A stretch of DNA of 48,694 nucleotides. It comes from a virus. Below are positions 17,277 to 35,926 of the stretch, piece after piece (positions within the stretch are counted from its first letter, which is position 1; each line of letters opens with the position of its first letter). The notes under the pieces were generated by a model. The model saw only the letters and a list, made by a program, of their open reading frames with translations. It ran no database searches and was not told the origin of the DNA. Where the stretch lies: positions 1 to 48,694 of the IMG/VR virus record IMGVR_UViG_3300044712_000766; one strand, written 5' to 3'. The position numbers and the translations under genes were made by a program.

Positions 17277-17479
17277 CGAGAAGGCTTGGGGATCCGGTAG
17301 GTCTTGGCACGCTTTTGCGTGCCCATGACTGCCATTCCTTCAGAGTCGCGCCCCTTGAACGTCATTTTGCTGGCATTTTTTGCTCGGGTTTGATTCTTGA
17401 ACTTCCGTTTTCCGCCACCGCCTGCGGAGGAGCCGCCGCCTCCAGCGAATCGTCCCCGTGCGTCTCGTCTTTGGGCCAT
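17273..17479 (-). CDS. Small RDARGRF-module protein, third copy
   Basis: A 68-residue basic protein opening MAQRRDARGRFAGGGGSS. The start at ATG 17479 aligns with the openings of the 9450 and 13067 proteins; an in-frame TTG lies six bases earlier. It is on the minus strand and its stop overlaps the tail tube stop by four bases. A late-gene element stands 18 bases upstream. Probably a small virion-associated protein. Confidence 0.7.
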   Translation of the reverse strand: MAQRRDARGRFAGGGGSSAGGGGKRKFKNQTRAKNASKMTFKGRDSEGMAVMGTQKRAKTYRIPKPSR

Positions 17480-17497
17480 GTTCAAAGCTAAGCGGTT

Positions 17498-17510
17498 GCC
17501 TTAGGTTGCC
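17498..17510 (-). promoter_or_regulatory. Late-gene upstream element, minus strand (GGCAACCTAAGGC)
   Basis: Same 13 bases as at 9413 and 12769; all three copies precede RDxRGRF-type or small basic head genes, here 18 bases before ATG 17479. Confidence 0.5.
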
Positions 17511-17938
17511 TAGAGCCCGCCTTTCTCCAGGCGGGTCCACTCCTTCACGAAGAACGATCCAATCGGCAGGGCATCGAGCGCCGGCTTGATCCAGTCGCGG
17601 GCAGGGTATGCCTTCCCTGGAATCCCCTGATAGATGTAGCCGGCATAGGTGACGCCACCACTGCCGCCCCACTCAAAGCGGATGGTGGTCAGGTTGATGC
17701 GACGGCGGCGCTGCGATCGGAGGAAGGCGCCCGTGTCCACGATGTCGCGGGGGCTGGTGACGGTCTCCCCGTTGCGGCGGCGGGTCTCGCCGGGCCAGGA
17801 GAACTGCTCTGTGCGGATCTCCTCCTTGAGCTGCTGATCGAGGGCCTTGCCAAAATCGGTCAAGATTTTGGGGACGCGGCGGATCAGATCCTCGCTGCGG
17901 AGGCTGGTGAGCCTGAGGCGCGACTGGACAAAGGCCAT
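17510..17938 (-). CDS. HK97 gp10-like tail completion protein
   Basis: A 142-residue protein. The helical start (IRRVPKILTDFGKALDQQL) and the core DTGAFLRSQ, then strands ending in YAGYIYQGIPGKAYPARDWIKPAL, match the HK97 gp10/neck family. These proteins close the head-tail joint. It is unusual that it lies on the minus strand while the rest of the tail module is plus. CAGCTAGGCC, a partial late-gene element, abuts its ATG. Confidence 0.8.
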   Translation of the reverse strand: MAFVQSRLRLTSLRSEDLIRRVPKILTDFGKALDQQLKEEIRTEQFSWPGETRRRNGETVTSPRDIVDTGAFLRSQRRRRINLTTIRFEWGGSGGVTYAGYIYQGIPGKAYPARDWIKPALDALPIGSFFVKEWTRLEKGGL

Positions 17939-17941
17939 GGC

Positions 17942-18331
17942 CTAGCTGTAGCGGATGATCCGCAGCTCGTCGCCCAGCACGTTGCGGAGGGTGCTGCCGA
18001 TGAGGCCGGTTTTGCCGAAGCTGCTGCCGATCTCGGAGACGACGCAGGGGTAGGCAGACTCGCCACCCCATGTGAGGGTGCCCCGGATGCCGCGCTTCAC
18101 CCTGGCGTCAACGGCGGAGGGGCTTACCGCGTAACCGGCCAGCACGTCGTTGTCCACGTTGACGCCTGGGAGGTCGTTGGGCTTGAAGGTGGAGCGCTTG
18201 AGGTAGAGCTGGACCGTCACGGTTTCGGTGGCCGGGGTGACGTTACCGGTGGCAGGATCTGTGACCGTGCCAACTGTAGGGACCGTGAAAACGGCCGTGG
18301 CATTGGCGATCCCGAGGAGTGCGCTGCTCAT
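17942..18331 (-). CDS. Head-tail joining protein candidate
   Basis: A 129-residue strand-rich protein (MSSALLGIANATAVFTVP at the start). The ATG at 18331 directly follows a late-gene element and is preferred to a GTG at 18349. It ends LGDELRIIRYS, three bases before the gp10-like start. Its place beside gp10 suggests a head-closure or neck role, but no clear family match is seen. Confidence 0.65.
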   Translation of the reverse strand: MSSALLGIANATAVFTVPTVGTVTDPATGNVTPATETVTVQLYLKRSTFKPNDLPGVNVDNDVLAGYAVSPSAVDARVKRGIRGTLTWGGESAYPCVVSEIGSSFGKTGLIGSTLRNVLGDELRIIRYS

Positions 18332-18344
18332 GCCATAGGTTGCC
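18332..18344 (-). promoter_or_regulatory. Late-gene upstream element, minus strand (GGCAACCTATGGC)
   Basis: Abuts the ATG at 18331; one base differs from the consensus. Confidence 0.5.
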
Positions 18345-18354
18345 AGCACTGGGG

Positions 18355-18597
18355 CTACTCAAAAAGCAGGTCAGCCGTAAAAGAGCCATCCTCTAACTGC
18401 CTAAGATTCAATGGGCACACAGCCTTGGCTGATGAGCTGACTTCCATCCCTTCGTAAGTGTCGCGGATCCAGACCTCCGTTGGCTCACCGTCATCGTTCA
18501 CCTCGGGCCAATTCTTGATGAGGGCCTTGAGGTCGGCCACCGTTAGGCCAGGGTGAAAATTGCGGATGCCAGGCGGCGTCCATGCTGATTCGGGCAT
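18355..18597 (-). CDS. Small acidic hypothetical protein
   Basis: An 80-residue acidic protein (MPESAWTPPGIRNFHPGLT at the start) with lower GC than its neighbours. The ATG at 18597 is chosen over an in-frame ATG at 18624 because the latter lies inside the 21-base leader shared with the gene at 16468, where it is not coding. It resembles phage accessory genes inserted between structural genes. Function unknown. Confidence 0.6.
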   Translation of the reverse strand: MPESAWTPPGIRNFHPGLTVADLKALIKNWPEVNDDGEPTEVWIRDTYEGMEVSSSAKAVCPLNLRQLEDGSFTADLLFE

Positions 18598-18607
18598 AAG
18601 GCTGTGG

Positions 18608-18628
18608 ATGGTGCGGATTCGCATCCTA
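18608..18628. promoter_or_regulatory. Second copy of shared divergent-promoter element
   Basis: Identical to 16481-16501. It lies between the minus-strand gene at 18597 and the plus-strand tape measure start at 18650. Confidence 0.55.
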
Positions 18629-18636
18629 GCCGTCGG

Positions 18637-18649
18637 GGCAAGCTAGGCC
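18637..18649 (+). promoter_or_regulatory. Late-gene upstream element (GGCAAGCTAGGCC)
   Basis: Abuts the tape measure ATG at 18650. Confidence 0.55.
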
Positions 18650-20485
18650 ATGGCGGAAACACTTGGCCAGGCGGTGCTAGAGGTTGGGGTCGATGACTCC
18701 AGGCTCCGCGCTGGGCTGGCAGGAGTTGAGGGTCAGGTCCGGCGGACCAGCAGTGTCATCGGTGAGCTGGGCGGGCTGATTGCGGGCATCGGCGCCATCA
18801 CGGCGTTCGGTGGGCTCATCAATGCCGCCAGCGAGCTGGAGAGCATCACCCGCCGGCTGGCGAACACGCTGGGCGATCAGGGGGCGCAGCAGGCGCTGGG
18901 CTTCACGCGGGAGCTGTCGGACCGGCTCGGGCTGAGCTTTACGGTGCTGTCGGATTCGTTTGCGGCCTTCACTGCGGCGGCCTCGGCGGCGAACATCCCG
19001 CTACAGGAGCAGCAGGGCCTGTTTGAGGCGGTGAGTACGTCCGCGCAGCGGCTGGGGCTGAGCAATGACGCCATCAACGGAAGCCTCCTTGCGCTGCAGC
19101 AGGTGGCGGCCAAGGGCACCGTGCAGATGGAGGAGCTGCGGGGGCAGCTCGGGGAACGGCTGCCTACGGCGTTCGCCGCCACAGCAAGGGGCCTTGGGAT
19201 CAGCAATAAGGAGCTGATCAAGCTGGTGGAGTCCGGCCAGCTCACGGCGGACCAGTTCTTCCCTGCGCTGACCAAGGGCCTGACAGAGCTGAATGGCAGC
19301 GGCCCGGCTGGGGTACCCACTGCGGCGCAGAACTTCGCCTCATTGCAAAACGTCCTCAGGACGTTGCAGGCCGACTTCGGCAAGGAGTTCCTGCCCGGCG
19401 TGGTGGCGGGCACCCAAAAGATCGCAGAGTTTTTGCAGGGATTCACAGCCAATCAACGGGCCGCCGACCTAAGCGGCGCCTTCGGCTTCGGCCCAAGGGA
19501 AGCGCAGCAGCTCGTTGGGCAGCTTGATTTTGTTGAGAAGAAGTTTGGCCTCACGCGGGAGCAATCAAAGAACATCGTCAGCGATGCGCTCAAGATCATC
19601 AGCGACTCCCGTGACGAGTTTGATCCCCTTCTTAACAGCTTTGGCCAGCTCACCCTTACCGGTGATGAGTACGTCAAAGTGCTGGGCCTCATTGAGGAAC
19701 GCAGTAAGTCGTTCACGGCTCCGGCCCGTGCTCTGCGGGATCTGGAGCAGCAGCAGATTGCAAACGCAAGGGCTGAACAGCAAGCGTCGGACCGCCGACT
19801 GGACACCCTCGACAAGATTAACGCCCGGCTGAAAACGGCGCGCAAAGAACTAGGCAGCCTTGACCCAAATAGTGCCGACGCACAGGCCAAGCGTGAGGAG
19901 ATCGCCAACCTTGAGACACAAGGCAAAAGTGTTGAGGAGCGGTCTAGGGCGATTCAGAAAGCTGTCGAGGATGCGGCCCGCAAATCCAAGGAGGTGGCGG
20001 ACAACTTCCAGAAGGCGGCGGATGCGGTGAAAACCACGGCTCAGAGCTTTGCCGAGACGGTGGCCAGCTCGCGGTTTGCCAGCGAGTCGGCCCAGCGCCA
20101 GGCCAGGGACACGCTGGAGCGCCGCGCTGCGGAGACTCTGAACTCTGGGGCCGTGAACCGTGACGCGGTGGCCCGTGAATTTGGGCTGCCCATCGCGCAG
20201 GCCGGGAGCCTGAGCATCGAGGGCGGTGGACAGTCCTTCCAGCGCAGCTTTACCAACCAAGTGGCGCCGCTGGATCTTCGCGGCTTGGGCCTTGACAAGC
20301 TGGCCGAGTTGGTGCAGCAGACAGCGCCGCTGGCCGATGGCGCCAAATCAATTCAGGAGAGCAACAGTGAGCTGGTTAAGGCCACCCAGGAGTTGACCGC
20401 AGCGCAGCGGGCAGCACTTGAGCGCGAGTCGAACCTCGCCATCACCGTGCCCGTAGGTGCCACGCGCAACGTGTACCTGCCATGA
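18650..20485 (+). CDS. Tail tape measure protein
   Basis: A 611-residue protein. The N-terminus (LGQAVLEVGVDDSRLRAGLAG) is typical of tape measures. Residues 60-230 match the conserved tape measure core (QALGFTRELSDRLGLSF, VQMEELRGQLGERLP, TADQFFPALTKGL). A long charged coiled coil follows around residues 360-470. At about 1.5 angstrom per residue the tail would be near 90 nm. The stop overlaps the next ATG (20482-20485). Confidence 0.9.
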   Translation: MAETLGQAVLEVGVDDSRLRAGLAGVEGQVRRTSSVIGELGGLIAGIGAITAFGGLINAASELESITRRLANTLGDQGAQQALGFTRELSDRLGLSFTVLSDSFAAFTAAASAANIPLQEQQGLFEAVSTSAQRLGLSNDAINGSLLALQQVAAKGTVQMEELRGQLGERLPTAFAATARGLGISNKELIKLVESGQLTADQFFPALTKGLTELNGSGPAGVPTAAQNFASLQNVLRTLQADFGKEFLPGVVAGTQKIAEFLQGFTANQRAADLSGAFGFGPREAQQLVGQLDFVEKKFGLTREQSKNIVSDALKIISDSRDEFDPLLNSFGQLTLTGDEYVKVLGLIEERSKSFTAPARALRDLEQQQIANARAEQQASDRRLDTLDKINARLKTARKELGSLDPNSADAQAKREEIANLETQGKSVEERSRAIQKAVEDAARKSKEVADNFQKAADAVKTTAQSFAETVASSRFASESAQRQARDTLERRAAETLNSGAVNRDAVAREFGLPIAQAGSLSIEGGGQSFQRSFTNQVAPLDLRGLGLDKLAELVQQTAPLADGAKSIQESNSELVKATQELTAAQRAALERESNLAITVPVGATRNVYLP

Positions 20486-21231
20486 CGCTCACCATCGGGT
20501 CGTTCTCCACCAATGCCCTGACGGCACAGCCCTTCGGCTACGAGGGCGACGCACGCCAGGGCCTCACTGCCCGTAAGTGGACGATCTCGGGCCTCGTCAC
20601 CAAGGCGCAATGGGCAGCCCTGTGCAGCGTCTACGACACATGGCGCGACAGCAGGATCACTGATGCCGACACCTTGCTCTCGGGCAGTGTGGGCAGCACG
20701 GTGAGCTTCACCGGCACCGGCTTCGGCCAGAGCTGGACCGGCATCGCCTGCTGGTTCACGGCACCTCCCAGCGCCACCCCGGCCGGTGTCTACCTCGATG
20801 CCACGGCCGAGATCGTGGATGCCAATCAGGCCCTGGCGGTGCTGCTGCGGGAGCAGGAGAAGCAGCGGCAGAACAGCGAGGCGCTGATCCCCACGTTCTC
20901 CACCATCACGCTGGGGAGCGTCACGGTGACGCCCCTGGAGCCCCCTGACGGCTATACGGATGGCCCACAGCCCAACCTTTCAGCCGGCGGCCGTCACTAC
21001 TTCACAGGGCCGCTCGGGGCCACGGCCACCCGCAGGATCCGCGCTCACGTCAACGCGACGGAGTACGCCACTCTGCGGACGTGGTATCAGACGCAAGTGG
21101 GCACCACGCCAGCATCTGGTGTTTGGCATCCAGTAGGTGACTTCCCGCCGCCTACTGCTGAAATCATCATTAGCGGTGGAGCGAAAACGACTCGCTACAC
21201 GATTGATTTAAATCTGGTGTTCACCCGATGA
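20482..21231 (+). CDS. Distal tail protein candidate
   Basis: A 249-residue protein directly after the tape measure, with overlaps on both sides. Two similar beta-rich halves are visible (residues 1-115 and 130-249): each has a TARKW/TATRR strand followed by a helix with a W and a closing strand. Two-domain distal tail proteins make the ring at the tail tip. The assignment rests on order and pattern. Confidence 0.7.
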   Translation: MTLTIGSFSTNALTAQPFGYEGDARQGLTARKWTISGLVTKAQWAALCSVYDTWRDSRITDADTLLSGSVGSTVSFTGTGFGQSWTGIACWFTAPPSATPAGVYLDATAEIVDANQALAVLLREQEKQRQNSEALIPTFSTITLGSVTVTPLEPPDGYTDGPQPNLSAGGRHYFTGPLGATATRRIRAHVNATEYATLRTWYQTQVGTTPASGVWHPVGDFPPPTAEIIISGGAKTTRYTIDLNLVFTR

Positions 21232-24104
21232 GCACTTACCTCCCCTACAGGGGCCGTGTCTTCTGCAGCCTTGGCCACCTGATTGATGGCCAGTTTGCTG
21301 ATTCCTACCTGCAGCAGGCTGGGCTCATCTTTTGCCGGGGTAGCGTCCGTCTGGCGGGCATCGTCCGCCCTGACGTGGGCACGGTCGTCAGCTTCGCCTA
21401 TACGCGGGACGACGTGACGGCAGCAAGGATCCCGAGGGTGCTGCGGGTGCTGTCGTCCTTTGCCGACCCCTTCACCAACATCACCACGGTGCAGCTTGGG
21501 TGCAAGCTGACGCTCCTGCAGGAGAACCGCGAGCCTGAGGCTAGGGCCACCCCTGAGGACAGCAACCCGAGCCTGCCGACTAACTGGCGGGACTTCATTG
21601 CAGCACCCATCACGGCTGGCTCTGTTGCTGGTAGGTGCCTCGGTGCGCTGGGCATCACAGCGGCAGGGCCGATCCCGCTGGGCAACCGCTACACGCGGGA
21701 CTTTATTGACCTTTCCACCGGCTACGTCGAGGTGTTGGGGAAGCTGCTGGAGTCGGAGAACCTTGTTGGCTGGCTGAATGAGGATGAGGAGCTTGCCGTC
21801 CGCAGCCTGCTCGATTCTGACGCCGCCCTAGGACCGGTATTCAATAACACTAACGTTTTCACGTTATCGCCCATTGGTGTGGGGAGCTTGCCCGGTGAAG
21901 CCGTCACCGTCAGCTATTCGCCCATGCGCCTCAAGGACTTCTCCATCACCATCGGAGTGTCCGACACCCTTGGCGCTGCCTCAGGCTGGAACGGGTCCGT
22001 CACCTACGGCTTCCCGGTCTCCTACTCCATTGCCTACAACTCTGGCGGCATCCCCCAGACCTTCACAAGCTCCTACGTGCCCGTCCAGCAGACGCGGAGC
22101 GAGTTCTCAGGCGGTCTGATGGTCCGCTCCACAACGAGCACGAGCAAGCCCTACGCGGCAGCGGCCGGAAAATACGCAAGCCAGGCGCTGACGAATGGTC
22201 TTTCGGTGCCCACGACGCCAGTAGCGAGCCGTTCAATCACGACGAACCGCTACGACTCCAGCGGGCGTGTGGTGGAGTCTACCGTCACAGAAACGCAGAG
22301 CCTTGTTGAGTTCGCCGGTAACCTTGACCTGACGTTCGTGTTTTCGGACACCGACTTTGTGGCGATCCCCTCGGGCGGGTCTGTCGTCACGCAGCGCACG
22401 GTCACTCGCTACCTGTATAACGCCGACTTTGTGCGGCGGGAGGTTCATCGGTACGTCAACTGGGGGCTGCAGCAAACTGGGCAACAGGCCGTCAACGAAG
22501 GACGCTCATCGTTTACAACGTCATCAGAGGTCTCGGACTACATCAATCTGCTCCTGGGGGAGCCTGCCTACGTCGGCACAGAAGTCAGCATCTCCGATGC
22601 AGGTCCGCAAGCGCAGCAGCTCCCCGGCCCGGCAGCCCTAGTCTCCCAGGTGTATGCGGATGCTGAAACTCGCCGTGAGGTGGTGACGGAGCTGGCCTAT
22701 GTGTTCGGCAGTGTCAGCTCTCAGCGGTCAGTCAACTTCACCCTGCCTTACACGGGTGACGACTACTTCTTCCTGAGCGGTTCTGTCTGGTTGCCGTTCA
22801 GCTACCGCAACCGGTCGCGGTCCATTGCGCTGAGCTATGGCCGCGTTCAGAACCGCCTCCGGCTGGGTAACTCGCAAGGCGTGAGCCTGCAGATTCCCGT
22901 GGAGCTGATGCCGACCCGGCCATTTGACCCGCTCTACCTGCAGGCCGGTGGTCTGACGGGCCAGTATCGGGCCAATGGGATGAGCTGGACATTTGACCAG
23001 AACGGCATCGTCGGACAGATTGACGCGCTGTTCTGGCTGGCGATCGGACAGGATGCAACGCCGGGGCCGATCTGGTTCCCTGTGGCGCCCGGGGTGACGG
23101 CACTACCGAGCACGCCGGGGCCAACGATCAATACGACGCCAGCGCCGGCCAATAGCGCCACCGTGCCATCTGGGTGGGATCCTGCAGATCCTGACCTTGA
23201 TGATCTATTCACCGAGCTGCCTACTGGTGTGCCTCCGGTGTTCCCGGTGGAGCTGGACGTGCCAACAGGGCTAGAGCCGTTTGCCGAGACGGTGAACGTG
23301 GACGTCGTGACGCGGGCGGTCTTTGAGATTGAGAGCTTCCCTTACAGCCTGACGCCGCAGGAAGCGGACATGGACCTGGTGACTCAGGCCGTGTTTGAGG
23401 TGGAGGAGATCGCCCTTGCTGTGGCGACGCGTGCTGATCTACGTCTGTCGCCTCAAGTGCCGTTTGTGTATGCCCCAACGCTGGTGAGCGTGCCTCGGGC
23501 TGATTTCAGGCTGGTGCCGAGGGTGCCCACCGTGTCTGGTGCGGCCTACGTGGGCGCCACGCGTGCGGCGTTCAGGCTGATGCCCCAGATTCCCGTAGTG
23601 GGGGCGCAGGGTCTTGTCGCTACGCCTAGAGCAGACTTCAGGTTGGTGCCGCAAGTGCCGGAGGTTGGCACAGGGGCAGCAACGATTGATGTCGCCGCCA
23701 TCACATACACGCAAAGCAGCATCTGGAGCACAAACAGCGCCGCGACTAATGCAGGCATGACGAATGGTGTCTTTGCGGAGACCCTGCAAACAGCGACCAA
23801 TATTGACGCCCCTGCTTTTGTGCGTATGGACTTTGGCGAAACGTGTCTGGTTAGAACGATCTATGTCGGTTGTGATTTCAGCAATACACTCGCTGGCGGA
23901 TGGGGCAAGACATGGACAGAAGGCAAAAGGCTACAATACTCAGATGACGGCACATCATGGACTGACATTCTAACGCTCGGCACATTTACATCTGGCATCC
24001 AGTCGTATGCCGTTGATTTTGAGGCTCGGTACGTTCGCATAGCAAACGCAACCTTAGCGCCAGACTATCTTGCAGTTACCGAGTTCTACGCCACCTCAAC
24101 CTAG
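21228..24104 (+). CDS. Tail hub/fibre protein with tandem repeats and a C-terminal F5/8-type (discoidin) domain
   Basis: A 958-residue protein. Residues 1-600 are beta-rich, fitting a tail hub, with a helical segment near residue 180. Residues 693-805 hold about six imperfect repeats of a TRAxFRLxPQVPxV type. Residues 817-958 (YTQSSIWSTNSAATNAG, RMDFGETCLVRTIYVG, ARYVRIANATL) have the discoidin/F5-8C carbohydrate-binding pattern. This could attach the tip to cell-surface sugars. Coupled to the upstream gene by ATGA. Confidence 0.8.
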   Translation: MSTYLPYRGRVFCSLGHLIDGQFADSYLQQAGLIFCRGSVRLAGIVRPDVGTVVSFAYTRDDVTAARIPRVLRVLSSFADPFTNITTVQLGCKLTLLQENREPEARATPEDSNPSLPTNWRDFIAAPITAGSVAGRCLGALGITAAGPIPLGNRYTRDFIDLSTGYVEVLGKLLESENLVGWLNEDEELAVRSLLDSDAALGPVFNNTNVFTLSPIGVGSLPGEAVTVSYSPMRLKDFSITIGVSDTLGAASGWNGSVTYGFPVSYSIAYNSGGIPQTFTSSYVPVQQTRSEFSGGLMVRSTTSTSKPYAAAAGKYASQALTNGLSVPTTPVASRSITTNRYDSSGRVVESTVTETQSLVEFAGNLDLTFVFSDTDFVAIPSGGSVVTQRTVTRYLYNADFVRREVHRYVNWGLQQTGQQAVNEGRSSFTTSSEVSDYINLLLGEPAYVGTEVSISDAGPQAQQLPGPAALVSQVYADAETRREVVTELAYVFGSVSSQRSVNFTLPYTGDDYFFLSGSVWLPFSYRNRSRSIALSYGRVQNRLRLGNSQGVSLQIPVELMPTRPFDPLYLQAGGLTGQYRANGMSWTFDQNGIVGQIDALFWLAIGQDATPGPIWFPVAPGVTALPSTPGPTINTTPAPANSATVPSGWDPADPDLDDLFTELPTGVPPVFPVELDVPTGLEPFAETVNVDVVTRAVFEIESFPYSLTPQEADMDLVTQAVFEVEEIALAVATRADLRLSPQVPFVYAPTLVSVPRADFRLVPRVPTVSGAAYVGATRAAFRLMPQIPVVGAQGLVATPRADFRLVPQVPEVGTGAATIDVAAITYTQSSIWSTNSAATNAGMTNGVFAETLQTATNIDAPAFVRMDFGETCLVRTIYVGCDFSNTLAGGWGKTWTEGKRLQYSDDGTSWTDILTLGTFTSGIQSYAVDFEARYVRIANATLAPDYLAVTEFYATST

Positions 24105-24108
24105 GCGT

Positions 24109-24120
24109 AGCAACCTAGCC
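24109..24120 (+). promoter_or_regulatory. Late-gene upstream element (AGCAACCTAGCC), with a partial copy just before
   Basis: A near-consensus copy 16 bases before the ATG at 24137; CAACCTAGGC at 24097-24106 is a second, partial copy that contains the stop codon of the preceding gene. Confidence 0.45.
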
Positions 24121-24136
24121 CTATCGCCTGCTGACC

Positions 24137-24568
24137 ATGGCCCTCGTTACTGTCTATAACCACACCAGCCGGCTGATCCGCTCCGGCCTGGTGACTCCCT
24201 CCAGTACGTTGATCGTCAACCTTTACAGCGTGCTGCCGACCAATGCCACTGCCACCACTAAGGCGGGCGCAGAATCTGGCGCAACTCAGCTTTCTACTGC
24301 CAATGGTTACACGCGGGACACCAAGGCACTGACTGGCCTTGCCGTTGCGACGGTCACAACTAACGACGGCCGAATGACCTGCGACCAGATTCTGTGGACA
24401 GCCAGCGGCGGCAGCATCGCGGCAGACTTTGCCATGATCTACGTGGACAGCTTGACCGATGACCCCCCGCTCTACCGGTACGACTTCGAGGGGACGATCA
24501 CAGCGCCCAACGGTATCCCGTTCGTGATCGACTTTCCCAACGGCATCGACCTGTTGGAGCGTGTTTGA
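24137..24568 (+). CDS. Tail structural protein, paralogue of the next gene
   Basis: A 143-residue strand-rich protein (MALVTVYNHTSRLIRSGLV at the start). The segment STANGYTRDTKALTGL and the following strands correspond to PSANGYAAATGTITSG in the 24600 protein, so the two probably arose by duplication. Such small beta proteins downstream of hubs are common virion parts. Exact role unknown. Confidence 0.7.
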   Translation: MALVTVYNHTSRLIRSGLVTPSSTLIVNLYSVLPTNATATTKAGAESGATQLSTANGYTRDTKALTGLAVATVTTNDGRMTCDQILWTASGGSIAADFAMIYVDSLTDDPPLYRYDFEGTITAPNGIPFVIDFPNGIDLLERV

Positions 24569-24570
24569 TC

Positions 24571-24583
24571 GGCAAGCTAGGCC
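24571..24583 (+). promoter_or_regulatory. Late-gene upstream element (GGCAAGCTAGGCC)
   Basis: 16 bases before the GTG start at 24600, in a 31-base intergenic gap. Confidence 0.5.
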
Positions 24584-24599
24584 ACTGGAGTAATGCCCT

Positions 24600-25013
24600 G
24601 TGGCCGAAACGATCAGCATCAGTCAGGCATGGCTGAAACGCAAGGCTGACCTTGCTTACGACGGCAGGGCCTATCGCGTGTTTCTGGCGAACAACAGCAC
24701 AGCAGGGCTGGACAACGAAGACACAGCCAGCGCCTGGCTGGCCGAGGAGCTGCCTAGTGCGAATGGCTACGCGGCAGCCACTGGGACGATCACCAGCGGC
24801 AGCGGCGCATGGAACGCAACGAACGGACGGTATGAGTTCCCGGCGATCGTGGCGACCTTCACTGCCACAGGGTCGGGTTTCGCCTACGACACAGTGGTGT
24901 TGAGGATCGGCACAGAAACGGCCATCGTCGGCACCCTCGTTGAGGATCCGGCCATCACATTGCTGGCAGGCCAAACGAAGTCCTATCGCATCGTGCTGGG
25001 TCAGGACGACTGA
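24600..25013 (+). CDS. Tail structural protein, paralogue of the previous gene
   Basis: A 137-residue protein with a GTG start (VAETISISQAWLKRKADL). The pattern of strands and the SANGY motif match the 24137 protein. The TGA overlaps the next ATG by one base. Probably a tail-tip component. Confidence 0.7.
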   Translation: MAETISISQAWLKRKADLAYDGRAYRVFLANNSTAGLDNEDTASAWLAEELPSANGYAAATGTITSGSGAWNATNGRYEFPAIVATFTATGSGFAYDTVVLRIGTETAIVGTLVEDPAITLLAGQTKSYRIVLGQDD

Positions 25014-26137
25014 TGCCTGCACGCATCACGGTCAGAGCTGAACTGCAGAGCCTGCTAAGCAAGTCTCAGGCTCTGACGGATGCCAACCGCCTAGCGCAGC
25101 TTGACGCGGAGCGGCGACGGCGTGAGGAGCTGGCTCAGCTTGCGGCGAAGAGGCGGCAAGCCGACGAGGAGGCGACACGGCGTAAGCAGCTTGAGGATCC
25201 TGTGGGTCGCAACCGGCTGACAGCGGCCATGGGGCAACGGGCGCTAGAGAAGTTCAGTGGATACTTCATGCGAGAGTTCTTCCCTGATTCGCTGCGGATC
25301 ACGCTCAGAAGCGGCGTCAAGGCGACGGTTGGAAACTTGTTTTATTCCTCTGTGGAGGATTCGCCAGGTTATGCCAACCAAAGCGACTCAGCGACATTCC
25401 CTAGTGCGGTCGTTGATTTTACCCCGACGTTCCTTCAGAACTGCCCAGAGTATGCGGCGATCTTGGCCGAGGTGGAGCCGCTGACGGGGATTGCTGATTT
25501 GCTGGGGCCAGACGATAGCTGGTTCGTCGGGGCTGGTTGGTATGAGGTCAAGATCCCATTCTTGTCCATCGATAACTTTAGCTTTTATGAGCTTGTCGAA
25601 ACACCTAGCGGTGGGTTTGTGCCTAGAGCGACTAAGGTTCGCGATGTATCGCAGCTAAGCGCGACAGGCTTGGGCTTTGTGAACACAAACCGCGACTTTG
25701 CGTTTACCTCATACAGAAACCAGGATGGCACCTCTTTGCCTAGAGGCCGGTTTGTTTATGTAAGAGGCTATGAGAACACGAAGCGGTATAACGCCGGGAA
25801 CTTCACCGGGTTCGTCACCGAGTATGACCAGATTTGGCAGATCCTGTTTGGTGTGTTGGTGCGGACAGAGACGCGCAGGGAGGTGAAGCCTGCGACGGGG
25901 AGCTGGCCTGCCGCATCTAGCACCGCTGGCCCTAGCACGGCAGCATGGATCATTGCGGAGTCTGCCAACGTGCCGGCAACTCAGTCGGTGATTGAAGCGA
26001 GTGCCAGCGGGCTGAATGTTGAGCAAGCCTTTGCCGGTAACTTCTCTAGCTGGCCAGGCGCGGGGCAAGGGGGCGCAATGTCAGAATTGTTGCCGCCTAG
26101 TGGCATCAGCGGCGGCGGCAGCGGAGGTGAGGAGTGA
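25013..26137 (+). CDS. Tail protein with N-terminal coiled coil
   Basis: A 374-residue protein. Residues 8-65 are a charged coiled coil (including ANRLAQLDAERRRREEL). Residues 70-300 are aromatic and strand-rich, with lower GC than neighbours. The C-terminus is Gly/Ser-rich (ISGGGSGGEE). The coiled coil shares ANRL-QL with the next small gene. I do not recognise the family; a tail-tip or fibre-linking role is inferred from position. Confidence 0.7.
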   Translation: MPARITVRAELQSLLSKSQALTDANRLAQLDAERRRREELAQLAAKRRQADEEATRRKQLEDPVGRNRLTAAMGQRALEKFSGYFMREFFPDSLRITLRSGVKATVGNLFYSSVEDSPGYANQSDSATFPSAVVDFTPTFLQNCPEYAAILAEVEPLTGIADLLGPDDSWFVGAGWYEVKIPFLSIDNFSFYELVETPSGGFVPRATKVRDVSQLSATGLGFVNTNRDFAFTSYRNQDGTSLPRGRFVYVRGYENTKRYNAGNFTGFVTEYDQIWQILFGVLVRTETRREVKPATGSWPAASSTAGPSTAAWIIAESANVPATQSVIEASASGLNVEQAFAGNFSSWPGAGQGGAMSELLPPSGISGGGSGGEE

Positions 26138-26295
26138 CGCAAGACACCATCTTGCAGAATGAAGCGGCATTGCTTGACCTGCTGAACCGTGCCGATGCGG
26201 TTCAGCAAGCGAACAGGCTCAGCCAACTGCGTCGGGAACAGGAACGGCGTACGCTGGAGCGCATTGAGCGCACCTCTGTAAACGATGCTGTATAA
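26134..26295 (+). CDS. Small coiled-coil protein
   Basis: A 53-residue protein with a GTG start overlapping the upstream stop. It is one amphipathic helix (VTQDTILQNEAALLDLL at the start) containing ANRLSQLRREQERR, similar to the coiled coil of the 25013 protein. It overlaps the next gene by 11 bases. Possibly a partner that zips with the larger protein. Confidence 0.6.
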   Translation: MTQDTILQNEAALLDLLNRADAVQQANRLSQLRREQERRTLERIERTSVNDAV

Positions 26296-26848
26296 GCAGC
26301 CCCCGGCGGCCCCGCAGACGCGGCTGATCGGTAACGAGCGGGTGGGCATCATCGAGGTGCCGGTGCTGGGCGGGCTGACGATCGAGGAGGATGAGACCAT
26401 TGCCGAGATCACCGACGCGGCCAATGACGTGGTGGTGTTGGCATCGCAGAAGGCGCAGGCAATAGCACTGGCGGAGAAGATCAGCGATCTGGAGGCTTAC
26501 CGGATCATTGAGGACAGCGTGTTTCACCGGACGCTGGAGGAAGCCGCGCATGGCATCGCGATTCGGCACGCGGAGGCCATTGCAGCGGTGGGGGCGGCGT
26601 ATAAGGAGATGGGCACCCTGCGGCGGCGGGCAACCGTGACGGCAATCCTGCGGCACCGGCTGGGGGAGCAGGAGATCCCGGCAGGCTTCCCGAGGGTTCT
26701 GTTTGACGCCTTGGCGCAGCTCGCTGAGGAGGAGCAGGCAGCGGAGAAGCTGCCGAGTGAGCCGCTCACGGCCGAGGCGCTGGGAAAGCCGCCAGAGGCC
26801 AGGGCAAGCGGGAAAAGACGGACTGGAGCGCGAAGTTCTGGGAGTTAG
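26285..26848 (+). CDS. Tail assembly chaperone-like protein, zero-frame product of a -1 frameshift pair
   Basis: A 187-residue protein. The strand-rich N-terminus (ERVGIIEVPVLGGLTIEEDE) and helical middle with VTAILRHRLGEQE look like cytosolic tail chaperones of siphophages. The heptamer GGGAAAG (26782-26788) is phased as G-GGA-AAG, 58 bases before the zero-frame stop. A -1 shift joins the next frame and gives about 379 residues. The location downstream of the tape measure is unlike the lambda order, where G/GT come before it. Confidence 0.75.
   Translation: MLYKQPPAAPQTRLIGNERVGIIEVPVLGGLTIEEDETIAEITDAANDVVVLASQKAQAIALAEKISDLEAYRIIEDSVFHRTLEEAAHGIAIRHAEAIAAVGAAYKEMGTLRRRATVTAILRHRLGEQEIPAGFPRVLFDALAQLAEEEQAAEKLPSEPLTAEALGKPPEARASGKRRTGARSSGS
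26782..26788 (+). promoter_or_regulatory. Putative -1 ribosomal frameshift site (GGGAAAG)
   Basis: Identical to the lambda G/GT heptamer and to the one at 9815, and in the correct phase (G-GGA-AAG). The -1 frame is open from 26761 to 27423 but has no start codon until TTG 26896, while its sequence from 26788 reads as plausible protein. Confidence 0.75.
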
Positions 26849-27423
26849 CTCACGCGTACCCGGGCCAGTTTGACCGGGCGACGTTTAGGAAGGAGTTGCG
26901 GGCCGATGTGATCCGGGCGCTGCAGACACTGGCCAAGATCCGCCGGCAACAGGCGCATCTGGCGGAGGTGCCGATTGTGCGTGCCTGGGCCTCGTGGCTG
27001 AATGGCTACCGGAAGGAGGGCACCCCGCCGATCGAGATCGCAGAGCTGTATGCGTTCGGGGAGCCGAAGGCGGCAAGGATCAGTGCGGAGGTGGCAGCCG
27101 TTGTGATGGAGTTGCAGCACGAGCAGAAAGCCCACCCGCTGCTGCTGACGGTGTGGGATGACGTGACCAAGGCCGCGAGCGAGCACCAGAAGGTGCCGGA
27201 GGTGAGGGCCCTGCGGAGCGATGACCAGACGGTGTGGATCGTGGCGCCGAAGTGGGAGGGCGGGGCGTGCCGGGGCGGGCTTGTGGCGGTGGGGACGCAG
27301 GTGAGCGGTGAGGTGCTGGTGCGCGACATGGATCGCCCGCTGCTGACTTATCGGGTGGTGCTGCCGGAGCGTCAGGGCTGCGGGTGGGTGGCGACGGGGG
27401 AACTGCTGGCGGCGGCAACCTAG
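26788..27423 (+). CDS. Frameshift extension of the chaperone-like protein
   Basis: After the shift the product continues with AARGQGKREKTDWSAKFWEL and AHAYPGQFDRATFRKEL, a W/F-P-x-F arrangement like the C-terminal parts of tail assembly chaperones. The helical RALQTLAKIRRQQAHLAEVP segment and then a beta-rich domain (TVWIVAPKW, RPLLTYRVVLPER) follow. Independent initiation at TTG 26896 is possible but would leave conserved-looking residues untranslated. Confidence 0.7.
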   Translation, partial: AARGQGKREKTDWSAKFWELAHAYPGQFDRATFRKELRADVIRALQTLAKIRRQQAHLAEVPIVRAWASWLNGYRKEGTPPIEIAELYAFGEPKAARISAEVAAVVMELQHEQKAHPLLLTVWDDVTKAASEHQKVPEVRALRSDDQTVWIVAPKWEGGACRGGLVAVGTQVSGEVLVRDMDRPLLTYRVVLPERQGCGWVATGELLAAAT

Positions 27424-27426: not shown

Positions 27427-27918
27427 ATGAGCGCCCTCCTCGACCTCCGCACAACCCTCTCCAGCATCCTTGCTGCAGAGCTGGGCACCTACACGCTTGC
27501 CAACGGTTCCACCACCCCGGCGGTGCGTTGCTCCGGGCCTGATGAGACCCGTTACCCCGGCACCATCGTGCAGGGGCTTGAACTGGTCATCATCAAAGAC
27601 CCGAGGCTCATCCCTATCCGGCAATACCAACAGGAGCGGGTGCAGGTGGAGTGGACCGCCTTCCTCGTGGCATGGGGGGACCGGCCGTCTGGCATTGCGG
27701 CACAGCTTGTTGCAGATGCCATCCCCGGCTGTGATATCGAGCGCGTTGAGGTTCCGCAAGGGATCGGCCCGCAAGACCAGTACAGGCTGACCATTCGTGG
27801 CCTGTCTGCCCTGCCGCTGGATGCCCTTGTTCCTGCCACCTCCGGCGGGGACCAGCTCACGACTTTGGCCGGTGACGCGTTGGTGACGCTCGACGGCCGC
27901 TATCTGGTGACGATCTGA
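27427..27918 (+). CDS. Tail terminator/completion-like protein
   Basis: A 163-residue alpha/beta protein starting MSALLDLRTTLSSILAAELG, with a GLELVIIKDPRL strand, an RVQVEWTAFLVAW strand and a helix before DIERVEVPQG. This order resembles tail completion proteins of the gpU/minor tail family, although the position here is late in the tail module. It overlaps the next ATG by one base. The role is tentative. Confidence 0.6.
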   Translation: MSALLDLRTTLSSILAAELGTYTLANGSTTPAVRCSGPDETRYPGTIVQGLELVIIKDPRLIPIRQYQQERVQVEWTAFLVAWGDRPSGIAAQLVADAIPGCDIERVEVPQGIGPQDQYRLTIRGLSALPLDALVPATSGGDQLTTLAGDALVTLDGRYLVTI

Positions 27919-30479
27919 TGGCTGACGTAACGATCACAGGGCTGCCTAACGCCAGCACGCTGGACGGTACCGAGAGGGTGCCGATGGATCAGGCCGGCGT
28001 CACTGTCGATGCCACCACTGCGGCCATTGCTGCGCTTGCGAATCCACGAAGCGGTCACACCGGAACACAGACTGCCAGCACGATCAGCGACTTTGCCACG
28101 GCCTCGCGGCTGCAGATACAGGGTGGCGTATCGGCAGGCTCGAACATCACCATCACGCCAACCGGCTCGGGTGCTTCGCTGTCGCAGGTGATCGCGGCGC
28201 CTGCGCTTTCCACGGCAGTTCGATCGCTGACGACTGGCATCACCGGCGCGTCGGCTGTCTCCAACCTGGTCACAATCAGCCAAGAGGATTACGACAGCCT
28301 GCCGAGCTACGACCCGGCGACGCTGTATTACATCCCTGACAGTGGCGGATCTTCGGGCACGGTCACCAGCGTTTCGCTGACGGCGCCAACTGGGTTCTCC
28401 GTCGCTGGTTCGCCTGTCACCAGCTCTGGCACGTTGGCGCTGAGCTTTGCGAGCGGCTACTCGTTGCCAACAACTAGCAGCCAGACGAACTGGGATACGG
28501 CTTTCAGCCAGACGCGGCAATGGGACGGTGGCGCCACCGGGCTCGTGGCCTCCACCGGGCGGACATCGTTGGGCCTAGGCACCCTTGCCACGCTCTCGGC
28601 ACTGGGATCGATCACTAGCGCAGGCGCGATTGGCAGCACCGCCAATTTGCCGGTCATCACCACGACCGGCGGGGCGCTCACAGTCGGCAGCTTCGGCACC
28701 ACGGCTAACACCTTCGCGCAGGGCAATGACAGCCGCTTTCACGACAGCGTGACCCTGAGCGCGGCGCTGACACCAGTGTTCAGCCTCACCGGGCAATCGC
28801 TGAGCGCCGTAGACCATGGTGCAGATCGGCTGCTGTTCTGGGACGACTCGGCAGGGACGCTGGCGCCCCTGACTCTGGGCACCAACCTCAGCATCACCGG
28901 CACAACGATCAATGCCTCCGGCGGCAGTGGCGGCGGCGACGTGAGCCTGAGCGGCACGCCGGTCGCAGGGCAGGCGGCGGAATGGACGAACGGCACGACC
29001 ATTCAGGGCGTAGCCGTCACCGGCACCGGCAGCTACGTCAAGGCGACGGCTCCGGCCCTGTCTGGGTCTACGCAATCGACGGATGACGCCGTTTCGGCTG
29101 GCACCAACGCGCAAGGCCAGGGTCTGCTGAGCGCAGACATCAACAGGGTGGCCACCGCATCGGCCAACGGTGGTGTGACCCTGCCTGTCATCACGACCCC
29201 CGGGCGGCGGGTCACCGTCATCAACCGAAGCGGGAACGTCATCAACGTCTACCCCAACACTGGAGCCTCGATTGACGGCGCCACGGCTGACACAGCGTTG
29301 GCGATGGGCTCGAACGTGCGCCTTGACTTCACTGCGACTTCCACTACGGCGTGGTTTAGCACGAGGCAAGACGCAACGAGCGTTCAAGCGCTTTCCGGCG
29401 CTGGCGCTGGCGTGATCACGGCCTTGGGCATCGCGGTGGGATCTGCCGGTGGACCCGTTGTGCTGAACGGTGCTGGCGGCACGCCATCGAGCCTGACGCT
29501 GACAAACGCCACCGGCTTGCCGCTGGCCACAGGCGTCAGCGGGATCCTGCCAACGGCGAACGGTGGCACCGGGGTTGATAACAGCACGGGCGGCACTGCC
29601 AATACGTTCTGGGCGCGGCCCAATGGCTCAACGGGTGCAGCCACCTACCGGGCGATTGTCGCGGCAGACATCCCGACGCTGAACCAAAGCACCACCGGCA
29701 GCGCGGCGACGCTCACCACGGCGCGGACGATTGGCGGCAGCAGCTTCAACGGCTCAGCCAACGTCACCAGCTTCCCAGCCCCCGGTCCTATCGGCGGCAC
29801 GACTCCCAGCACAGGCGTATTCACCACGCTCGAGGCCCGCTCGGCCTCGTCGTTGCTGTTGGGCACTGCTGGCTCTGCAGTTGGCTCTGTGGGCTTCCGC
29901 AACGCCACCAGCGGCACGATCACGCTGGCGCCGCCTACTGGTGCGCTGGGCACCGTCACGCTCACGCTGCCGGCGATCACCGACACGCTGGTGACGCTGA
30001 CAGCGACGCAGACGTTGACGAACAAGACGCTGACATCGCCAACGATGACGGCGCCTGTTCTGGGCACTCCAGCATCAGGGACCCTAACGAACTGCACCGG
30101 GCTCCCGGTCTCCACGGGCATCAGCGGCCTCGGCACTGGCGTCGCCACCGCTCTAGCGGTTGCTACGGGATCCCCTGGCGCGCCGAGCATCCTGGTCAGG
30201 TCCGGCACCGCAGCACTGGGAACCACGGCCATCGCCTCGGGTGCCAGCGCGACCCTTGTCACCGTGTCGGCTGCCGGCGTGCTGACAACCGACGTGATTG
30301 ATTGGGGCTTCAATGCCAACCCCAATACCGTTACCGGCTACAGCGCTGCTAGCACGACCGGGTGTCTCGTCATCACGGCCTATCCCACGGCCGATAACGT
30401 CAACTTCCTGGTCAGCAACCCGACTGCCGCCAGCATCACGCCGGGGGCGCTGACCCTGAACTGGAAGGTGACGCGATGA
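27918..30479 (+). CDS. Tail fibre, Gly/Thr/Ser-rich
   Basis: An 853-residue protein of low complexity. The first 25 residues (ITGLPNASTLDGTERVPM) are typical of phage fibre N-termini that dock to the tail. Recurrent LTLTNATGLPLATGVSG, ILPTANGGTG and TLTNKTLTSPTM motifs mark trimeric beta-structured shafts. A compact C-terminal domain (from about residue 770) may be the tip. Coupled to the next gene by ATGA. Confidence 0.82.
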   Translation: MADVTITGLPNASTLDGTERVPMDQAGVTVDATTAAIAALANPRSGHTGTQTASTISDFATASRLQIQGGVSAGSNITITPTGSGASLSQVIAAPALSTAVRSLTTGITGASAVSNLVTISQEDYDSLPSYDPATLYYIPDSGGSSGTVTSVSLTAPTGFSVAGSPVTSSGTLALSFASGYSLPTTSSQTNWDTAFSQTRQWDGGATGLVASTGRTSLGLGTLATLSALGSITSAGAIGSTANLPVITTTGGALTVGSFGTTANTFAQGNDSRFHDSVTLSAALTPVFSLTGQSLSAVDHGADRLLFWDDSAGTLAPLTLGTNLSITGTTINASGGSGGGDVSLSGTPVAGQAAEWTNGTTIQGVAVTGTGSYVKATAPALSGSTQSTDDAVSAGTNAQGQGLLSADINRVATASANGGVTLPVITTPGRRVTVINRSGNVINVYPNTGASIDGATADTALAMGSNVRLDFTATSTTAWFSTRQDATSVQALSGAGAGVITALGIAVGSAGGPVVLNGAGGTPSSLTLTNATGLPLATGVSGILPTANGGTGVDNSTGGTANTFWARPNGSTGAATYRAIVAADIPTLNQSTTGSAATLTTARTIGGSSFNGSANVTSFPAPGPIGGTTPSTGVFTTLEARSASSLLLGTAGSAVGSVGFRNATSGTITLAPPTGALGTVTLTLPAITDTLVTLTATQTLTNKTLTSPTMTAPVLGTPASGTLTNCTGLPVSTGISGLGTGVATALAVATGSPGAPSILVRSGTAALGTTAIASGASATLVTVSAAGVLTTDVIDWGFNANPNTVTGYSAASTTGCLVITAYPTADNVNFLVSNPTAASITPGALTLNWKVTR

Positions 30480-33637: not shown

Positions 33638-34915
33638 ATGCTGCGCGTTGCCTACCTACGGGTCAGCACGGCCTCAGGGGAGCAGATGTCCGCGCTGGTG
33701 GCCCAGCGGAGCCGGCTGGAGGGCGAGGCGCCGGATCTGATGCTGGAGGACGTGGAGAGCGGCCGTAACCCGGGGAGGCCGCAGTATCAGCAGCTCCGAA
33801 GGCTGATCGAGGCGGGGAAGGTGCGGGAGGTGGTGGCCGCCAGCTTCTCGCGGCTGGGGCGGGACGCCACGGAGTCCGATGCGTTCGTGGCTCTGTGTGA
33901 TCGATGCCAGGTGGTGTGCCGGACGCTGGACGATGGCGTGCTGAGCATGGCGACGCCGGAGGATCTGCTGCTGACAAGGCTGCGGGGGAGCCTGAGCCAA
34001 GGGGAGAGCATGAGGCTCAGCGCCAGGGTGCAGGCGGGCTTCATCGAGGGCCGGAAGATGGGCAAGCCGATGCGGAGGCCGTGCTGGGGCTACCGGCTGG
34101 CAGAAGGCCGGCAGAGGCTGGAGCCGGATCCGGTGACGTTCCCGAGGGCGCAGCGGCTGGTGGAGACGCTGCGGGGCTGCGGGTGGCGGCAGAAGGAGGC
34201 GCTACGGGTGTTTGCCGAGCCGGTGCCGTTCAGGGCCTGCACGTCACTGAGGGCGTGGCTGCTGAATCCGGTAATCCGTGGTGGGATCGGCTACCACAAG
34301 CGGAAGGACCAGACTTTCGGCTTTGTGCTGTGGGACCAGCACCCTGCGGTGCTGAGCCACGCCGAATTTGAGGAGTGGCGCGTGATCGCGGACGGCAACC
34401 GCCGCATGTGGGGGCATAACGCTAGTGTGATGCCGAGGATCTTGACAGGGCTGTGCCGGTGTGCTGAGTGCGGGTTCCGGCTGAAGTACATCAGCGGGAG
34501 GAGCATCCCTAGCCTGAAGTGCCAAGGGGTCGGCTGCAGCCAGCACAGCAGGGGGACGCGGGAGGAGGTGATCGTCCTCTATGCGCTGGAAGCGATAGCT
34601 AGGGATGCGGCGGCAGCGTTGGCGGCTACGGTCATGCGGCGGGAGCCGCCGGAGGCAGGGGAGCTGCGGCGGCAGATCGAGGCGCTGGAGCGGCTGGGGG
34701 ATCCTGAGCTGGCCGGCGTGATTGAGGGGAAGCGGCAGCGGCTGGAGGGGGTGCTCAGGCAGCCCGGCGTTGACCCGCTGCTGGTGCAGAAAGTCGCAGA
34801 CCCCCGCTGGCATTTGTTCGCAACGGCTGAGGAGGTGCGAGCGATTTTGCGGCACCTTGTCGTGGAGATCGTTGTGACCAGGCAGGAACCGACGGCCATT
34901 CGCCTGAGGCTGTAG
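33638..34915 (+). CDS. Large serine recombinase (phage integrase)
   Basis: A 425-residue site-specific recombinase. The resolvase domain has the nucleophile S10 in YLRVSTAS, and the conserved SFSRLGRDATE motif near residues 69-79. A recombinase DNA-binding domain follows (GKPMRRPCWGY, then SLRAWLLNPVIRGGIGYHKR). A zinc ribbon uses C273/C275/C278 with C295/C300, then a coiled coil and a C-terminal strand region end the protein. Such enzymes integrate phage DNA at attB without a tRNA target. The attP site is usually next to the gene; I cannot define it here. Confidence 0.92.
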   Translation: MLRVAYLRVSTASGEQMSALVAQRSRLEGEAPDLMLEDVESGRNPGRPQYQQLRRLIEAGKVREVVAASFSRLGRDATESDAFVALCDRCQVVCRTLDDGVLSMATPEDLLLTRLRGSLSQGESMRLSARVQAGFIEGRKMGKPMRRPCWGYRLAEGRQRLEPDPVTFPRAQRLVETLRGCGWRQKEALRVFAEPVPFRACTSLRAWLLNPVIRGGIGYHKRKDQTFGFVLWDQHPAVLSHAEFEEWRVIADGNRRMWGHNASVMPRILTGLCRCAECGFRLKYISGRSIPSLKCQGVGCSQHSRGTREEVIVLYALEAIARDAAAALAATVMRREPPEAGELRRQIEALERLGDPELAGVIEGKRQRLEGVLRQPGVDPLLVQKVADPRWHLFATAEEVRAILRHLVVEIVVTRQEPTAIRLRL

Positions 34916-35000
34916 CGGCATCGAAGCGGGCGGTGATGGCCTCGACGATGGTGCCGATGCTGGCGGTGGTGTTTGGCATCTGCAGCGGGGCGGCGTTCAT
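34755..35000 (-). CDS. Possible small protein overlapping the integrase 3' end
   Basis: 81 codons starting MNAAPLQMPNTTASIG, with the ATG overlapping the upstream stop (ATGA). The first 28 codons lie outside the integrase gene and share QMPNT with the start of the neighbour at 35218. The rest is antisense to the integrase and of biased composition. The coupling is suggestive, but the gene could be spurious. Confidence 0.3.
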   Translation of the reverse strand: MNAAPLQMPNTTASIGTIVEAITARFDAATASGEWPSVPAWSQRSPRQGAAKSLAPPQPLRTNASGGLRLSAPAAGQRRAA

Positions 35001-35218
35001 TGCTGGCGCTCCGGCAGTTCAACGCAGGCGCCGCAGGCGTCACCGCCAGGGGTGGGGAAAATGCAGCCGCTTTGCGCTTGCCAGCCAGATTTAGTGCGCG
35101 TCCAATAGCCACCGTTGAAGGCATGGGCCTTGGTGCCAATGGGGTACCTGTTCCATGGGCGATCTTTGCGTTGTTTGATAGCGCAAGAGTCGGTCTGTGT
35201 ATTTGGCATCTGCATCAT
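34997..35218 (-). CDS. Conserved-looking small phage protein
   Basis: A 73-residue protein (MMQMPNTQTDSCAIKQRKD at the start) whose centre, YPIGTKAHAFNGGYWTRTKSG, then FPTPGGDACGACVEL, follows a pattern I recall from small early phage proteins. The start overlaps the stop of the 35215 gene. It is part of the minus-strand replication operon. No function is assigned. Confidence 0.6.
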   Translation of the reverse strand: MMQMPNTQTDSCAIKQRKDRPWNRYPIGTKAHAFNGGYWTRTKSGWQAQSGCIFPTPGGDACGACVELPERQQ

Positions 35219-35457
35219 GGTTCGGCGTTTAGGTGCTGTTTCAGGAGGGCGTCCCACTGCTGGGGGTTGGCGGCGATCCACTCGCGGGCGAGATTGCGGT
35301 AGGGGGCCGGGTTGCGGACGTTGATGGAGCGCACGTCGTTGGGGACGCGGGGCGGGTGGTCGAGGGCATCGAGGGGCCAGAGGCCGCGAAGGGCGGCGAG
35401 GGCGAGGGACTGGCCGGTGAGGAGCATCCCCCGCGATAGGGAGTCGTCCTGGGTCAT
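35215..35457 (-). CDS. Small hypothetical protein
   Basis: An 80-residue protein (MTQDDSLSRGMLLTGQSL at the start) with Pro-rich middle and a C-terminal helix (AREWIAANPQQWDALLKQHL). The leader GTTAGGCC abutting the ATG partly resembles the late-gene element. Coupled to the next gene by ATGA. Function unknown. Confidence 0.6.
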   Translation of the reverse strand: MTQDDSLSRGMLLTGQSLALAALRGLWPLDALDHPPRVPNDVRSINVRNPAPYRNLAREWIAANPQQWDALLKQHLNAEP

Positions 35458-35470
35458 GGCCTAACTAGCG

Positions 35471-35926
35471 TCAAAACCATGGGCCCTCCATGTCTCTGGC
35501 GTCTTCTTCGTAAACTGCACCTTTGTGCCAATCCTTGCCAACGCCAGTCGCCGGAAGCCCTTGGTCTTGGTGCACAATTCGCACCTCGTGTGTAAATCCG
35601 CCATCCTGAAGCACACGCCTGGGATTACTCGATCGACCTCCGGCAATCCAGATTGGGCCATTGCTGTTATCGGGGATGGCAAGTGCGGCGCCAAACCATG
35701 ATTCTTGGACTGATCCAAGTGCCATGACCTCAATAAGGCCATCAACCCAGAAGACTTGCCTGTCATCGTCGGACCAGGCTTGGTGCCAATAGATCCATAC
35801 ATGCCTAGCTGGCACAGGAACTACGTTGAAGACTTTGGCTGGGTCTGGCCTAAGGCGATCTTTTTCTTTCCTCCAGATGCTTCTAGTTTCTTCGTTGGCC
35901 GGTATGTAATCAACAATCATCGTCAT
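35471..35926 (-). CDS. Hypothetical protein of lower GC
   Basis: A 151-residue protein (MTMIVDYIPANEETRSIWR at the start), aromatic and mixed alpha/beta. Base composition is clearly less GC-rich than its neighbours, which suggests a more recent arrival. The start overlaps the upstream stop (35923-35926). No family is recognised. Confidence 0.65.
   Translation of the reverse strand: MTMIVDYIPANEETRSIWRKEKDRLRPDPAKVFNVVPVPARHVWIYWHQAWSDDDRQVFWVDGLIEVMALGSVQESWFGAALAIPDNSNGPIWIAGGRSSNPRRVLQDGGFTHEVRIVHQDQGLPATGVGKDWHKGAVYEEDARDMEGPWF

Follow-up and report, generated by a model that had tools for sequence, protein, structure and literature searches.

Frameshifted tail chaperones of the G/GT type are a well-known device, and their genes usually lie between those of the major tail protein and the tape measure protein, although this place is not strictly defining. 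The virus record IMGVR_UViG_3300044712_000766, whose full 48,694 bases are called the window here, raises the question of whether such a pair can be encoded elsewhere. Two overlapping reading frames that share the slippery heptamer GGGAAAG at position 26782 lie about 5.8 kb downstream of its tape measure gene. An earlier note on this DNA had read them as a G/GT-type chaperone pair made by -1 frameshifting. We analysed the pair, its relatives and its gene neighbourhood.

Results

The slippery site in the window

The portal protein of the window is nearest to those of cyanophages such as KBS-S-2A (49% identity), and an integrase/invertase-type recombinase is encoded at 33638-34915. The features of the tail gene region are listed in Table 1. 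From the end of the heptamer, 58 bases remain to the stop codon of the zero frame. The -1 frame is open from 26761 to 27423, and its earliest ATG, GTG or TTG codon is TTG 26896. A ribosome slipping at the heptamer would produce a fusion of 168 + 211 = 379 residues. The heptamer, phase, distances and frames given by the earlier note all match the sequence, including the lack of a start in the -1 frame before TTG 26896.

Table 1. Tail gene region of the window, with the frameshift site and its two frames.
Feature	Position	Strand	Basis or remark
Major tail protein-like gene	16533-17276	+	phrog_158 2.1e-4; profile match to S-CBS2 gp019 8.3e-10
Neck-type gene	17510-17941	-	Profile matches to PSS2 gp063 2.5e-11 and S-CBS2 gp014 1.4e-4
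Putative head-closure/stopper-like gene	17942-18358	-	Profile match to PSS2 gp062 1.2e-11
Tape measure protein gene	18650-20485	+	Pfam TMP_3 4.2e-28; phrog_2335 8.5e-38
Distal tail genes between tape measure and pair	20482-26137	+	
Zero-frame gene, gpG-like product, 187 aa	26285-26848	+	Homologues with heptamer in 72/72 records
GAGG just 5' of heptamer	26774-26777	+	Possible Shine-Dalgarno-like stimulator (weak)
Slippery heptamer GGGAAAG, phase G-GGA-AAG	26782-26788	+	3' dinucleotide CC
-1 frame extension, gpT-like, 211 aa	26788-27423	+	Phage_tail_T resemblance in family members
Probable tail terminator gene	27427-27918	+	Adjoins pair in 72/72 records; label from position in marine relatives
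Fibre-like gene	27918-30479	+	Phage_tail_C 4.4e-5, just below cut-off

Counted on both strands of the window, GGGAAAG occurs 5 times against 5.37 expected, without enrichment. This is what a chance heptamer in overlapping frames, without function, would predict. Since the count is at chance level, the case for the site at 26782 rests on comparison with relatives.

A second phased GGGAAAG lies at 9815, directly before a TAG, with the -1 frame running on to 10354 (9450-10354 in the window). The two identical sites had been taken to strengthen each other, a claim that the comparison does not support. The closest relative (L092) retains the arrangement at 9815, and two more distant relatives (L090 and L091) carry both halves of the gene in one continuous frame. 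This second site may reflect a recent frameshift within a single gene, programmed or otherwise, and it contributes little to the argument for 26782. Short basic proteins that start with an RDxRGRF motif and continue with runs of glycine are encoded at 9450-9824 (+) and 17273-17500 (-) of the window, and proteins of this type occur twice in tandem in L092.

Conservation of the heptamer

Relatives were gathered by searches with both products and then with profiles, at increasing distance. In addition, a search with the gene that follows the pair gave 61 loci. The profile of the -1 product matched an open frame in all 83 loci and in the window (84 sources); after 12 loci were dropped as repeat copies of contigs already in the set, 72 records with 54 different -1 proteins remained. 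As 56 of the 72 contigs had been found only through the neighbour gene, they provide an independent test of the presence of the pair. Codon and start counts were made on unique sequences (36 + 19 sites, 48 and 53, respectively), and the alignments comprised 27 of the 49 unique zero-frame proteins (A9) and 29 of the 54 unique -1 proteins (A10). Among cultured phages, the pair was found through one family member in S-CBS2, PSS2 and S-CRES1-3, and four of these genomes, all except S-CRES2, were examined. When the phage collection was searched, the two proteins of the window itself gave no match, one member of the wider family gave matches and another gave none. Two scans of bacterial and archaeal genomes yielded no relatives.

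A phased canonical heptamer was present at one aligned place in 72 of the 72 virus records (71 IMG/VR contigs and the window), as GGGAAAG in 43 and AAAAAAG in 29, with the phase X-XXY-YYZ throughout. One or the other was also found in phase in the four cyanophages examined (S-CBS2, PSS2, S-CRES1 and S-CRES3), giving 76 of 76 records. The codons that form the site are otherwise rare. The glycine codon within GGGAAAG was GGA at 36 of 36 unique sites, whereas GGA makes up 5.2% of the remaining glycine codons of these genes. At the 19 unique AAAAAAG sites the preceding codon was ATA (15) or CTA (4), while ATA accounts for none of the 317 other isoleucine codons and CTA for 8% of leucine codons in the same genes. 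GGGAAAG and AAAAAAG can thus replace each other while rare synonymous codons preserve the heptamer, and these codon counts indicate that it is under selection at synonymous sites. A chance heptamer is refuted by this conservation, and we leave it practically no probability.

The two bases 3' of GGGAAAG are CC at 31 of 36 unique sites, and, according to the accessible text of a review (PMC5009743), it is a 3' CC that makes A_AAA_AAG most prone to shift in Escherichia coli. A GAGGA core is frequent in the relatives at -11 to -7 from the heptamer; it may act as a Shine-Dalgarno element, a role we call no more than possible because GAGGA also encodes Glu-Glu. A 3' stimulatory stem-loop was considered and rejected: downstream of the heptamer there was no consistent structure, with a mean z of -0.63 over 39 unique stretches and an empty consensus for 27.

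Coding in the -1 frame

Substitutions between close pairs of sequences reveal coding in the -1 frame. Past the zero-frame stop, 11, 23 and 66% of them fell on -1 codon positions 1, 2 and 3, and within the overlap, where both frames are used, the shares were 33, 26 and 41%. A conserved -1 stretch, AAxG...DW..xFWxLA..FPGQF, precedes the start codons in most records. Of the 48 unique sites, 24 had some ATG, GTG or TTG within -1 codons 1-39; in 6 of these one occurred as early as codon 11 or 16, and in 14 only at codons 37-39. None of these early starts was conserved in place, the exception being the GTG of Val41.

The downstream frame could instead be a separate gene, translated without frameshifting from an internal start (GTG at Val41 or TTG 26896) or by coupling. 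Valine occupies position 41 of the -1 product in 52 of the 53 unique records and is encoded by GTG in 47 of 53, and GenBank has separate downstream genes in S-CBS2, PSS2, S-CRES1 and S-CRES3, with no frameshift annotated in these records. However, GTG makes up 74% of the other valine codons in these genes, and its prevalence at Val41 is explained by its being the usual valine codon. GTG is absent there from 6 of the 53 unique records, no consistent Shine-Dalgarno sequence lies ahead of Val41, and the codon equivalent to TTG 26896 is TTG in only 4 of 53. Moreover, about 40 conserved -1 residues lie before Val41, and the heptamer is selected at synonymous sites. An independent conserved start for the downstream frame was looked for in the relatives and none was found, and we regard a separate gene as very improbable. 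The starts annotated for the downstream gene at L085 9910, L088 10118 and L087 14166 would truncate the conserved -1 stretch and are probably misplaced. Taken together, these data argue that frameshifting at 26782 is very likely.

What the two products resemble

The Pfam family Phage_tail_T, which represents lambda gpT, resembles the -1 product in 20 of 29 family members (best E 1.6e-5), the listed scores being at most 25.0 bits and hence under the curated cut-off of 25.9. The alignment covers -1 residues of about 43-106 and, in the best rows, most of the 73-position model; in the window's own -1 copy Phage_tail_T was not detected. In addition, the tail protein family phrog_337 matched 14 of 29 members (best 8.9e-6), and matches to phrog_5297 (tail protein) and phrog_34388 were obtained. 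The zero-frame product had no family match: phrog_313 appeared in 1 of 27 members at 0.17, and no PHROG chaperone family was convincing. Direct profile comparison of the pair with lambda G and lambda T gave nothing significant, and a PDB sequence search found no match.

The zero-frame model (pLDDT 83) comprises two strands and five helices, and the C-terminal part of the 211-residue -1 part is predicted to be beta-rich. Foldseek with the zero-frame model placed ORF19 of Methanobacterium phage psiM2, the best match bearing a name, second (E 6.9e-3, probability 0.96), after F4YCJ6. Like the window gene, psiM2 ORF19 has a phased heptamer (AAAAAAG) and a -1 extension, and it sits in the canonical chaperone place between the structural protein ORF18 and the tape measure ORF21. 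However, its -1 extension is short, and it lacks sequence similarity to the window protein. As sequence profile comparison does not back the predicted fold link, we treat it as a lead. KBS-S-2A, the nearest portal relative of the window, likewise has a phased AAAAAAC with a -1 extension, located at the end of CPKG_00058, the gene before the tape measure and thus in the canonical place; our pair and neighbour profiles had no convincing match in that genome. The open -1 extensions of psiM2 ORF19 (L089 13209-13778) and KBS-S-2A CPKG_00058 (L009 33198-33548) are unannotated in their records. Against the PDB, the zero-frame model reached at best a Foldseek E of 0.84 and a VIA-align Z of up to 6.4 to KcsA-type helices, and the -1 model a Z of up to 4.0; we trusted none of these matches. 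The fold searches revealed no unrelated fold; they were uninformative and did not speak against the chaperone reading.

Gene order in the window and its relatives

In the window, the major tail protein gene is followed by four genes on the minus strand (two with profile matches to neck-type genes), the tape measure gene, the tip genes, the pair, its neighbour and the fibre-like gene. The four minus-strand genes, at 17273-18642, fill the stretch between the major tail protein and the tape measure. A tape measure gene was recognised in 43 of the 72 records and lay upstream of the pair in all 43, at a median distance of 7.0 kb (range 5.7-8.4 kb). The pair was between major tail protein and tape measure in no relative in which both were recognised. 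Thus, the order that the earlier note had called unusual, with the pair some 6 kb after the tape measure, is borne out, also by comparison with related phages. Of the 11 records with a recognised neck-type gene, 6 had it on the minus and 5 on the plus strand; since both strands occur, the inversion of this gene is not linked to where the pair lies.

The marine cyanophages carry homologous pairs next to the same neighbour gene (PSS2 gp064/gp065, S-CBS2 gp015/gp016, S-CRES1 gp72/gp73 and S-CRES3 gp79/gp80), with both halves and the neighbour found by profile in all four. The zero-frame profile matched PSS2 gp064 at 1.6e-30, the S-CRES1 protein at 5.3e-20, that of S-CRES3 at 8e-16 and S-CBS2 gp015 at 3e-14. 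In contrast to the window, these pairs lie upstream of the tape measure. The order in S-CBS2 is neck (gp014, a phrog_5 Neck1 match at 1.2e-8), pair, neighbour, major tail protein and tape measure, and the pair is upstream of the major tail protein in S-CRES1 and S-CRES3 as well. In PSS2 the pair (34537-35765) is about 18 kb before the tape measure ORF 077, located at 54104-59761 according to the accessible part of the PSS2 paper (PMC2784084).

The neighbour gene directly follows the pair in 72 of 72 records. It has no PHROG or other family match, but because it directly precedes the major tail protein in S-CBS2 we label it a probable tail terminator gene. Pair and neighbour come after the neck genes in the marine phages and after the tip genes in the group of the window, and on these gene orders they seem to move together while their place changes. 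An HNH endonuclease gene is located between pair and neighbour in S-CBS2, S-CRES1 and S-CRES3 (L085, L087 and L088), and in L001 the same stretch is longer by about 300 bases (9615-9917). This spot is possibly an insertion hot spot.

The gene order also bears on a further reading, in which the frameshift is real and the pair serves another assembly step, such as tail joining or termination, or fibre assembly. A fixed place beside a probable tail terminator gene would suit such a role, as would the lack of any relative with the pair between major tail protein and tape measure and a zero-frame protein that matches no known chaperone family. Against it, the -1 part resembles Phage_tail_T in most family members, and between the window's own major tail protein and tape measure, where the minus-strand genes lie, no alternative chaperone candidate was recognised. 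Moreover, the virion proteins identified by mass spectrometry in PSS2 include the neighbouring ORFs 061, 062, 063 and 066-069 and the tape measure ORF 077 but not 064/065, as far as the accessible text of that paper and its Table 2 go (PMC2784084). Lambda gpG and gpGT are likewise absent from mature virions, according to the part of the review available (PMC5009743), and the missing PSS2 064/065 therefore fit chaperones of the gpG/gpGT type. We consider another assembly step distinctly unlikely.

Discussion

Our analysis indicates that the two frames at 26285-27423 are, with high probability, a divergent -1 frameshifted tail assembly chaperone pair of the G/GT type; within this reading a chaperone function is likely, as judged from sequence comparison. 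The proposal of such a pair downstream of the tape measure gains support from the conservation of the heptamer and the selection on synonymous codons. Further backing comes from conservation of the -1 coding sequence ahead of most start codons, the resemblance to Phage_tail_T, the PSS2 virion list and the gene order in relatives. As in lambda G/G-T, the first gene ends shortly after a GGGAAAG of identical phase, which would give a short protein and a -1 fusion, and the -1 part resembles the gpT family. Lambda differs in its order V-G-T-H, whereas the pair of the window comes after the tape measure and tip genes. A significant direct sequence match to G or T is also lacking, and the -1 part of the window is 211 residues long.

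Most ribosomes would translate 26285-26848 into the 187-residue gpG-like protein. A minority would slip back one base at G-GGA-AAG (26782), re-pair as GGG-AAA and produce the 379-residue fusion with its gpT-like domain; both the slippage and its low frequency are predicted. By analogy with lambda, the short form would coat the tape measure protein and the long form would recruit the major tail protein, starting growth of the tail tube, and the proposed binding partners follow from that analogy. Both forms would leave afterwards. In this lineage, pair and neighbour follow the tail-tip genes rather than preceding the tape measure gene.

A bolder reading, to which we give a small chance, is that the frameshifted chaperone left the tape-measure neighbourhood and became locked to the tail terminator gene as a co-moving two-gene cassette. 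The long form might then couple tube growth, or its end, to the terminator and not only start it on the tape measure.

The mechanism itself is already known, and the new element is the displaced order with a co-moving neighbour. In the literature searched, as far as its text was accessible, we recognised no description of this pair or of a chaperone after the tape measure gene, and within that literature the family is unreported as frameshifted. The word frameshift is absent from the accessible text of the PSS2 paper (PMC2784084). The probable chaperone pair would add a family of frameshifted tail chaperones that is unannotated as such in the cultured cyanophage records examined. A place before the tape measure gene would then be usual, yet not required, and the pair would escape any annotation that searches for it solely ahead of the tape measure gene.
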